Source: an uncultured Verrucomicrobiota bacterium
Lineage (GTDB): Bacteria; Verrucomicrobiota; Verrucomicrobiia; Limisphaerales; UBA9464
Direction of reading: 5' to 3'
Assembly (NCBI GenBank): GCA_903821635.1
Contig: CAIJLV010000049.1
Location: forward strand, 1-64,000
Length of the DNA: 64,000 bases
Part shown: in pieces, positions 46,840 to 49,785 of the stretch
Numbering within the stretch: the stretch's first letter is position 1
Layout: every line of letters starts with the position of its first letter
Translations under genes and position numbers: made by a program
The notes under the pieces: model-generated
Database searches by the model: none
Seen by the model: only the letters and a program-made list of their open reading frames with translations
Told to the model about the DNA's origin: nothing

Positions 46840-47907
46840 TTATTTGGCCCCCGCGGTGGCCTTCAACATGCCTCCCGCCGTGCGCGAGGCAACGGTCCGG
46901 CGCTGTTCCGGCAGCAAGATTTCCACCATGAGTAGCAGGATGCCCAAGCCCAGCGGCCACTGGAAGCGCTCGATCCACTGGCGCTTCTTGCCGGACTTCA
47001 GGTCGGCCTTCGGCAGCACGTCGAGGCCGCGGTCGTAGAGGGTTTGAATCGTCTGCCGGTTTTGCAGCGGTAGGTAGAAGCCGCCGCCCGCATCGGCCAC
47101 CTGCTTGAGGGCGTCTTCGTTTAATTTCGAGCGCACCGCGTTGCCGTTTTCGTCGCGGACAAACACCGGATTGCCGTAGGGATCGGCCGAGCGCAATACC
47201 GCGCCCGCCGGGGTGCCCACGCCCAGCGTGAAGATGCGCACGCCGTCCTCGGACGCCTTCTTGGCCGCCTCGATCGCCCCTTCGCCGTGATCTTCGCCGT
47301 CGCTGAGGAAGACGATGGCCTTGGCGCCCGCGCTGTCCTTGCCGAAGGCGGCCACGCATTCGCGGATCGCGTCGGCAATCGCCGTGCCCGGTTCGGGAAT
47401 CAGGTCGGTGTCGAGCGCGCGGACGCTCTGGCGAAAGGCCTCGTCGTCGAGCGCCAACGGGCATTGCAAAAAGGCACTGCCGGCGAAGGCGACCAGCCCG
47501 AGCCGGTCCGACTTGCTCAAGGCGAGCAGGTCAAAGGCGGCGAGCTTGGCCTTGGCGAGGCGGTTCGGTTTCACGTCATCGCCCAACATCGAGCGGGAGA
47601 CGTCGAAACACACGATGAGGTCGAGCCCCGACGCGGTGGTTTCTTCCTCGTGAAAACCCCACTGCGGCCGGGCTAAGGCGACGAGCAGCGTGACGACGGC
47701 CAGCGCGAGCAGGACGCGCTTGGCAATCTGTCGGGCCGGCGACAGACCCACGGTGAGCTGGGCGAACAACCGGGACTTCACAAAGGCCTGCGCCGCGCGT
47801 TGTTTGCGCCGCCAAGTCCACCACAGGAACCAAACGGTCAGCGGCGCGAGGACGAGCGCGAGGAGGATGAACTGTCGGGAACCCCAATTCACGGCAGTTT
47901 CCTCCAC
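46840..47907 (-). CDS. batB: BatB-like VWA-domain membrane protein
   Basis: A 355-residue membrane protein with two N-terminal helices (about 12-31 and 62-80), a von Willebrand factor A domain and one C-terminal helix (LGLGILLLMVEILLPE). The metal-ion site DxSxS is intact (DVSRS, 102-106), with the TDLIPEPGTAIADAI and VFLSDGEDHGEG loops of the VWA fold. It pairs with BatA in a cell-envelope complex. It overlaps batA by 19 bp if the ATG at 47907 is used; a GTG at 47892 would reduce this. Confidence 0.83.
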   Translation of the reverse strand: MEETAVNWGSRQFILLALVLAPLTVWFLWWTWRRKQRAAQAFVKSRLFAQLTVGLSPARQIAKRVLLALAVVTLLVALARPQWGFHEEETTASGLDLIVCFDVSRSMLGDDVKPNRLAKAKLAAFDLLALSKSDRLGLVAFAGSAFLQCPLALDDEAFRQSVRALDTDLIPEPGTAIADAIRECVAAFGKDSAGAKAIVFLSDGEDHGEGAIEAAKKASEDGVRIFTLGVGTPAGAVLRSADPYGNPVFVRDENGNAVRSKLNEDALKQVADAGGGFYLPLQNRQTIQTLYDRGLDVLPKADLKSGKKRQWIERFQWPLGLGILLLMVEILLPEQRRTVASRTAGGMLKATAGAK

Positions 47908-48893
47908 ACGGTTTGACCCAGGATGATTTCCAGCGCCAGCAGCCCCACCCCGGGCAACACGAACCAGCTCATCAGCTCGTCGTAGTAGGCGAAGCGCTTC
48001 AGTTCGGCCTCGGTCTTCTCCAGTTTGTCGATGTCGGCGTAGACGCCCCGGAGCGATTCCGTGCTGACGGCCCGGTAGTATTTACCACCGGTCTTGTCGG
48101 CGACCTGCTTCAGGGTCGCTTCGTCAATGTCCACGGCCTGCTTCACGTAGACTTTGCGGCCCAACGCGTCCTTCGCCGGCACCGGCGCAAACCCCCGCGT
48201 GCCCACCCCGATCGTGTAAACTTTTACGCCCAGCGCCGCCGCCGCCTCCGCCGCGGTGAGGGGCGGAATACTGCCGGCGTTGTTCTGGCCGTCGGTCATC
48301 AGGATGACGATGCGGGACTTGGACTTCAGCTCGCGCAATCGGTTCACGGCGGCACTCAGACCGGAGCCAATCGCCGTCTGCTGGCCGTCGATCACGCCCA
48401 ATTCCAAGCGGTCCAGCACCCGACGGAGGAAGTCGTGATCCAGCGTCGGCGGGGCGGCGATAAAGGCTTCCGAACCAAACGCGACCAACCCGATGCGATC
48501 GCTAGTGCGTTGTTCGATGAAGCTGCCGAGCACGTCCTTGAGCATCGTGAGGCGGTTTACCCGTTCGCCGCGCAACTCGAAGTCCTCCGCGATCATCGAA
48601 CCGCTGAGGTCCACCGCCACCGCGATGTCGATGCCACTGGCCTTGAGCGGCGCCTGGCCGCCGGCGACCTGCGGCCGGGCCAGGCCGAGGAAGAACAGGG
48701 CGAGCGCGAACCAGCGGAGGTTCAACAGGAACGAGCCCGCCCGGCTGCGGCTGAGTTCAGTGATGCCCTTCACCAGCGTGAGACTCGAATAGACGAAGGC
48801 ACTTTCGCGCCCGGACTGGCCGCGCAACCAGGCCAGCAGGGGAATCGAAAGCAACCCCAGCAACCACCACGGTGAGGCAAAGGAAAAGTTCAT
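47889..48893 (-). CDS. batA: BatA-like VWA-domain membrane protein
   Basis: A 334-residue membrane protein with N-terminal helices (WWLLGLLSIPLLAWL and LLNLRWFALALFFLGLAR), a VWA domain with metal site DLSGS (95-99), the ILMTDGQNNAGS loop, and a C-terminal helix (WFVLPGVGLLALEIIL). It is the canonical partner of BatB. It is the first gene after the palindromic repeat, about 210 bp from the DUF4381 gene, so the repeat may affect expression of this half of the operon. Confidence 0.85.
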   Translation of the reverse strand: MNFSFASPWWLLGLLSIPLLAWLRGQSGRESAFVYSSLTLVKGITELSRSRAGSFLLNLRWFALALFFLGLARPQVAGGQAPLKASGIDIAVAVDLSGSMIAEDFELRGERVNRLTMLKDVLGSFIEQRTSDRIGLVAFGSEAFIAAPPTLDHDFLRRVLDRLELGVIDGQQTAIGSGLSAAVNRLRELKSKSRIVILMTDGQNNAGSIPPLTAAEAAAALGVKVYTIGVGTRGFAPVPAKDALGRKVYVKQAVDIDEATLKQVADKTGGKYYRAVSTESLRGVYADIDKLEKTEAELKRFAYYDELMSWFVLPGVGLLALEIILGQTVWRKLP

Positions 48894-48934
48894 GGCTGCG
48901 GGGCGGTCAGGGACGGTGGCAGTTGAGCCGACGT

Positions 48935-49064
48935 AGCGCAGGCTTGCAGCCGGCTGTTTCGCCGGTTTTCAACCTGCGGGGCGTGGGCGGCTCCCCGCGC
49001 GAAGCTCGTCGGCCAGCTCCAGCCGGCTCGAAGCCGGCGAGACCGCAGCTTAAAACTCTGCGCT
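48935..49064. repeat. 130-bp imperfect palindrome, likely dispersed repeat element
   Basis: The left arm (48935-48980, beginning AGCGCAG and containing TCGCCGG) and the reverse complement of the right arm (49019-49064) share about two thirds of their bases over 46 bp, around a GC-rich centre of 38 bp. It lies in the 211-bp gap between the DUF4381 and batA genes and holds no convincing gene. The form is that of REP/MITE-like palindromic elements that fold into a long hairpin in RNA. Copy number in the genome cannot be judged here. Confidence 0.6.
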
Positions 49065-49104
49065 CCGCTCCCGGCAACCCGCTGCCCCTTGGAAGAAAAT
49101 GACC

Positions 49105-49785
49105 TCATGGCTTGGCCCCCGGATCTGTGACTGGAGACGACACGAACCGCGGCGCGGTTTCCTCGACCAACCGGAGCGCGGACGCATGCAGCGCCTCCAG
49201 TTCGGCGCGATCCGGTTCAAAACGGGCGAACTTCACGAGGTCGGTGCGGGTGAGGAACTCGGACATCAGGGTCTTGTGCCGGCTTTCCAGCACGGCGTTC
49301 TTCGGCAGTTCCGCCAAAAATTCTTCGGTGGTTCGTTCGGGCGCTTTCAACCCGAAACGCTCCTCCAGATACGTGCGGGCAATCTCGGACACCGTCGTGC
49401 AAAAACGCTCCGGTTGCTCCAGCAGTGCCAGCGCCGCGGTGAGCCGCTGCCGGGCGCGTTCATCCGGCGGGATCAATTGCGGGGGCGCCGGCTGCGGGCG
49501 TTGGCGACGCCAGCGCCACCAGGCAAAGGCCAGCAATCCCAGGGCGGCCAGCACCACCCCGGCGCGGAGCGCCCAATCCGCCAGCGTGGCAATGTCGATC
49601 GGGCCCTTGATGTCGTGCAATTCCTTGGGCACCGGCCCGGCGTTGGGCTTCGCCACCGTGAGCGCCGCGTTGGTCGCGGCCGCCGCCACAGTCAGGCTGA
49701 AGGGCCAGGCCCACACGCGGGGAATCCGGCGGGCGGCCGGGGGCGGACTGACTGGGGAACGGGACTCCATTGCGGGCGGCTTCAT
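49105..49785 (-). CDS. DUF4381-type membrane protein of the Bat operon
   Basis: A 226-residue protein with an N-terminal hydrophobic segment, a second helix (ALRAGVVLAALGLLAFAWWR) and a basic WRRQRP boundary. A soluble helical domain follows, with FCTTVSEIARTYLEERFGLK and RTTEEFLAEL, the pattern of DUF4381. This family usually sits between DUF58 and BatA genes and probably belongs to the Bat membrane complex. It begins inside the DUF58 stop (ATGA overlap). Its own activity is unknown. Confidence 0.75.
   Translation of the reverse strand: MKPPAMESRSPVSPPPAARRIPRVWAWPFSLTVAAAATNAALTVAKPNAGPVPKELHDIKGPIDIATLADWALRAGVVLAALGLLAFAWWRWRRQRPQPAPPQLIPPDERARQRLTAALALLEQPERFCTTVSEIARTYLEERFGLKAPERTTEEFLAELPKNAVLESRHKTLMSEFLTRTDLVKFARFEPDRAELEALHASALRLVEETAPRFVSSPVTDPGAKP

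Follow-up and report, generated by a model that had tools for sequence, protein, structure and literature searches.

A probable decayed REPIN between the DUF4381 and batA genes of a verrucomicrobial MoxR-Bat operon

What is the large imperfect palindrome that parts two coding genes of an operon in the window (the whole 64-kb stretch of DNA analysed here), and how did it come to be there? The first-pass annotation had described arms at 48935-48980 and 49019-49064, matching in inverted orientation at about two thirds of positions around a 38-bp centre, and our alignment confirmed both this match (31/46 positions) and the place of the palindrome within the operon, with DUF4381 and batA on either side. 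Homology to other copies sets the limits of the element at 48933-49066, two bases further outward on each side than given before, with inverted arms of 45 nt each (48933-48977 and 49022-49066) matching at 30/45 positions around a 44-nt centre. The features of this copy and its surroundings are as follows.

47889..48893, minus strand: batA, with BatA N-terminal and VWA domains (Pfam PF07584, PF00092), downstream of the element
48890..48897, minus strand: AGCCATGA at the batA start, identical to the 8 bases at the DUF4381 stop (sequence)
48933..49066, minus strand (following the host operon): REPIN-like element with two 45-nt GTAG-REP arms inverted around a 44-nt centre (covariance model hits)
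48933..48977, plus strand: left arm, with GTAG tag, hairpin 1, linker TGTTTC and hairpin 2 (53.2 bits, model R1)
48933..48936, plus strand: GTAG tag, intact (sequence)
48938..48954, plus strand: left-arm hairpin 1, GCAGGCTTGCAGCCGGC, one mismatched pair (model alignment)
48961..48977, plus strand: left-arm hairpin 2, GCCGGTTTTCAACCTGC, one mismatched pair (model alignment)
48978..49021, no strand: centre (spacer), poorly conserved, 16/44 identical ungapped to the G001:C44 copy
49022..49066, minus strand: right arm, with mutated tag, hairpin 1, linker GGTCTC and hairpin 2 (37.6 bits, model R1)
49022..49038, minus strand: right-arm hairpin 2 (inner right), GCCGGCTTCGAGCCGGC, perfect stem (model alignment)
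49045..49061, minus strand: right-arm hairpin 1 (outer right), GCAGAGTTTTAAGCTGC, two mismatched pairs (model alignment)
49063..49066, minus strand: right tag, GTAG changed to GGAG; the G001:C44 copy keeps GTAG there (sequence)
49105..49112, minus strand: AGCCATGA at the DUF4381 stop (sequence)
49105..49785, minus strand: DUF4381 gene, upstream of the element (Pfam PF14316 at 21.9 bits, under its cut-off of 27.2), an assignment backed by orthologues directly preceding batA in relatives

With arms matching at only two thirds of positions and modest folding z-scores (-2.05 on the plus and -2.36 on the minus strand, the folding energy being only moderately unusual because the region is GC-rich), the palindrome might be taken for a chance product of GC-rich DNA. 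This reading, however, is refuted and its likelihood is practically nil, as both arms match a covariance model from other genomes and the palindrome is unique in the window. Model R1, built without any sequence from the window's genome, matched the two arms at E 3.6e-13 and 7.2e-9, the next best match in the window reaching 12.6 bits. No second ungapped inverted 45-mer with at least 30/45 matches and a spacer of 0-60 was found across the 64-kb window, and none reached 30/45 in three Markov-simulated 64-kb sequences.

Pattern, DNA and model searches of the window's genome (4.66 Mb in 237 contigs, 87% complete) indicate a low copy number of about four. The first DNA search detected related sequence on contigs C184, C63 and C141, and at least three other full copies were found, at C63:888-1023, C184:4305-4451 and C170:18891-19004. 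The closest copy seen belongs to a same-genus genome (G001, C44:26801-26934); it also measures 134 bp, and its arms are identical to those of the window copy at 43/45 (left) and 37/45 (right) positions. Of 58 genomes, made up of the window's and those of 57 relatives, 19 contain matches to the C63 copy. In a sample of 196 genomes from the order, the model finds matches in 108 at E<=1e-3, a looser threshold than the E<=1e-8 at which a phylum-wide sample gave 2 of 241, namely the genome of the window and another from its class. The copies in its own genome and in relatives support the earlier suggestion that the element is REP-like and belongs to a family dispersed in this lineage; a second copy, whose lack had been named beforehand as counting against that suggestion, was found in both. 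Among the matches listed, almost all named records with the exact pattern are Verrucomicrobia, including a Pedosphaera sp. and one record labelled 'Verrucomicrobia subdivision 3', and because of these names the order carrying the family is probably Pedosphaerales / subdivision 3.

Comparison of copies gave one plan for each arm, in which GTAG and a C are followed by a 17-nt hairpin that a six-base linker near YGTNTC joins to a second 17-nt hairpin, each hairpin having a 7-bp stem with covarying pairs and a 3-nt loop. Among 42 distinct arms, standard pairs fill 99.0% of pair cells (85.7% with shuffled partners) and changes on both sides affect 7 of the 14 pairs and 96 cells, compared with 29.8 in shuffles, none of 500 shuffles reaching 96; when partners were slid by 1-3 columns at most 47% of cells were paired and the covariation signal was destroyed. 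Since the pattern used to collect the arms fixed the tag and part of the stem bases, conservation at those positions is partly built in; this pattern left the covarying pairs 10-18, 11-17, 33-41 and 34-40 free, and pair 31-43 nearly so. Likewise, GT[AG]G occurs in 81/81 distinct arms (GTAG in 73) under a search pattern that itself required GT[AG]G, but homology between copies also ends at GTAG and CTAC.

Such covariation, together with the stable fold, would also suit a structured RNA gene or riboswitch of the bat operon. Against this, no Rfam match was found in the window, and many genomes have copies with unrelated sequence on either side, as well as copies in tandem units; the dispersed copies and the single occurrence at the DUF4381-batA junction argue against an RNA gene or riboswitch, which we regard as extremely improbable.

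The annotation had proposed comparing copies for precise ends and target-site duplications, and the former were borne out by GTAG...CTAC limits and narrow length classes, the 115 paired elements from fetched loci measuring mostly 131-136 and 114-117 bp. Intact copies open with GTAGCGCAG and close with CTGCGCTAC, with unrelated sequence beyond both ends at the 60 loci read. Matches in relatives to the C170 locus (L161, G000:C170:18300-19650) start and stop at or near the element limits, some overrunning them by up to 16 bases, and the flanks of this copy are mostly without matches in relatives, orthologous flank being present only in G019 and G022 (49-423). Considered as a candidate second empty site and compared with five relatives, the C170 locus had strongly diverged flanks. 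Target-site duplications of 5-12 bp were found in 0 of 101 copies, which weakly favour a C ahead of GTAG and a G behind CTAC. Clear cases of long direct repeats around single copies were confined to one G050 locus and to tandem clusters of G007. The latter, on G007 contigs C155, C67 and C176 (L114, L115 and L117), consist of the element with about 105 bp of flank, repeated with a period of 238-239 bp.

The annotation had also likened the arms to those of MITEs, and a remnant of a DDE-type insertion sequence with terminal inverted repeats would agree with an element of about 134 bp that has inverted ends and is dispersed, and with the 8-bp AGCCATGA on both sides of the DUF4381-batA gap. The lack of target-site duplications in the 101 copies, the position of AGCCATGA about 35-38 bp outside the element ends, and the Y1/RAYT type of the transposase that the repeats flank all count against this origin; because of the missing duplications and the Y1/RAYT transposase the element is not a MITE in the strict sense, and a DDE-type ancestry is highly unlikely.

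Y1_Tnp genes were listed in 11 genomes. Elements or single arms stand on both sides of the Y1 gene at G050:C16, G005:C74 and G007:C176, and none turned up next to the remaining Y1 transposase loci examined. With the G007 protein as query these three genes gave the best matches in the relatives, and their proteins conserve the HVH motif and the tyrosine. The G005 and G007 proteins were scanned with the NCBIfam model REP_Tyr_transpos ('REP-associated tyrosine transposase') and scored 82.5 and 79.2 bits at a cut-off of 80; the RAYT is about 242-244 aa long. The element is present in 7 of 8 genomes with a close RAYT (E<1e-50) and in 12 of 50 others (Fisher p = 0.001, kinship ignored). A close cognate RAYT was not found in the window's own genome, the best candidates of this 87% complete assembly having 43-44% identity, and its distant RAYTs have different repeats around them.

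The one at C53:4605-5141 is flanked, in both orientations, by a clearly different hairpin repeat, GGCTAGTGGCACAGGCGCCCCCGCCTGTG (895-962, 1573-1649 and 2557-2693 of L226, G000:C53:3600-6600), forming a second RAYT-repeat pair, and around a third RAYT, C98:27975-28433, lie three copies of a repeat near AGTGGAAGCGGCGTCCCGCCGCTTG (982-1006, 1495-1519 and 1703-1727 of L227, G000:C98:26900-28653). A further short-hairpin repeat resembling GTGGGACAGGC and containing GGGGCTTCCAGCCCC, at L025 (G000:C31:4338-4404) and L021 (G000:C10:32523), is akin to the element in style and different in sequence.

Inverted hairpin arms, the lack of target-site duplications and the flanking of a RAYT in three relatives identify the element as a REPIN of the GTAG superfamily. 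In Pseudomonas fluorescens SBW25, REPINs are REP doublets that form hairpins, for which movement in trans by a RAYT has been proposed (Bertels and Rainey 2011, PMC3116915). They resemble the present family in their inverted REPs with a spacer of set length, in arms better conserved than the centre, in repeat-flanked RAYT genes and in tandem clusters of flank plus element, as in G007; the present family differs in its two serial hairpins per arm, its length of mostly 114-136 bp and its Verrucomicrobia hosts (PMC3116915). According to the passages available from the survey of Di Nocera et al. (2013, PMC3733652), REPs of the GTAG superfamily likewise have an outer GTAG, short stems with a 3-nt loop and head-to-head dimers, and GTAG repeats were already listed there in the verrucomicrobium O. 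terrae. The order-wide family is not named in the portion of that text available and may equal one of its listed GTAG families, e.g. that of O. terrae. The two-hairpin arm has a precedent, as far as the same passages describe it, at the Pseudomonas RAYT genes P. putida 607 and P. fluorescens 4255, whose double inverted repeats also have a GTAG REP joined to a second stem-loop in each arm (PMC3733652, Figure 8B). In those repeats the GTAG unit is degenerate and its partner stem is said to be unrelated, whereas both hairpins here share the GCnGnnTNNNAnnCnGC plan. The REPtron with its TnpA-REP/RAYT in E. coli and S. maltophilia (PMC8266576, PMC6006769) is alike in its REP-flanked Y1 HUH gene and in a GTAG adjoining the stem-loop, and REP cleavage in vitro has been shown in other bacteria (PMC8266576); in comparison, the RAYT found here, of about 242-244 aa, reaches the REP_Tyr_transpos cut-off only marginally.

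How the element came to lie within the operon is suggested by the same junction in other genomes. DUF4381 and batA overlap or lie no more than 2 bases apart in 26 of 29 relatives (all except G007, G035 and G037), usually with an ATGA or longer overlap. A gap of 211 bp is found in the window's genome only, 134 bp of it being the element and 77 bases lying outside, and only there was the element found at this junction; given the overlap in 26 of 29 relatives and its sole occurrence here, the element was therefore inserted at the junction. In G007 (L168, G007:C58) 85 bases without the element separate the genes, with ATGA retained at the DUF4381 stop, and in G035 20 bases without it, thus the junction can widen otherwise. 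The AGCCATGA on both sides may fit a duplicated junction. A long target duplication, spanning some 75 bp at the element, would explain the survival of both genes and is not supported, as local alignment of the two 110-bp flanks did no better than shuffles, its score being reached in 286 of 2000 shuffles and in 1791 of 4000 random window pairs; what the flanks clearly have in common is the 8-bp AGCCATGA alone. The ATGA overlap of DUF4381 and batA is lost in the window's genome, and the insertion probably broke their stop-start translational coupling; so far as sequence can tell, the loss of this overlap is the clearest consequence for the host. We consider it quite doubtful that the case extends to a two-hairpin-arm REPIN with its own RAYT branch marking one Verrucomicrobia order, and an insertion at ATGA that uncoupled two genes, each then having a start of its own, with the junction duplicated (AGCCATGA) and both left intact.

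The annotation had further supposed that a hairpin at this place could stop or protect the message, splitting expression of the operon; no intrinsic-terminator-like site was found to bear out the stopping, a GC-rich stem with a T run being absent from 48700-49300; an effect on message stability is possible. It may be asked whether the hairpin is kept as a functional element of the operon, acting as attenuator, RNase barrier or partial terminator on the batA message, which would be compatible with a mobile origin. The element lies between co-directional genes of one operon, the transcript strand folds at -68.5 kcal/mol, and REPs have been hypothesised to stabilise or end messages (PMC3733652, in the passages available). 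However, besides the lack of a terminator-like site, the element occurs at the DUF4381-batA junction in the window's genome only, and the mismatches in three of its four hairpins and the mutation of one of its two tags do not suggest selection on this copy, and such a role is rather unlikely. From the same defects, along with the lack of a close cognate RAYT in the assembly, we regard the window copy as a degenerate REPIN, probably a fossil no longer mobile; changes of GTAG abolish or strongly reduce cleavage in the systems studied, with one more tolerant exception (PMC8266576), which likewise makes the copy probably immobile.

Taken together, the palindrome is very probably a decayed REPIN, spread by a RAYT and inserted between DUF4381 and batA, which it separated from an overlap at ATGA. 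The observations behind this reading are family membership, precise ends, the lack of target-site duplication, covariation, RAYT flanking and the overlapping genes of relatives. The element has two inverted GTAG REP arms, each consisting of two short hairpins, and its family would have been spread through the order by a Y1 HUH transposase of the RAYT type that acts on single-stranded DNA, putatively mobilising the element in trans. Its insertion would most simply postdate the split of the window's genome from the same-genus relative and would have parted two genes once overlapping at ATGA, with loss of stop-start translational coupling as the putative main consequence for the host, and the copy would then have lost its mobility. 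Judged by its sequence, the element is a further example of a REPIN, having the sequence features of one, and implies no new mechanism. The weak-looking palindrome, matching at two thirds of positions, can be identified with confidence through intact copies elsewhere, and it leads to a REPIN family, with a candidate RAYT, that is spread across an order of Verrucomicrobia, a group of which the REP survey, in its available text, names only one species (PMC3733652), and to one clean case of a REPIN insertion separating two overlapping genes of a MoxR-Bat operon.
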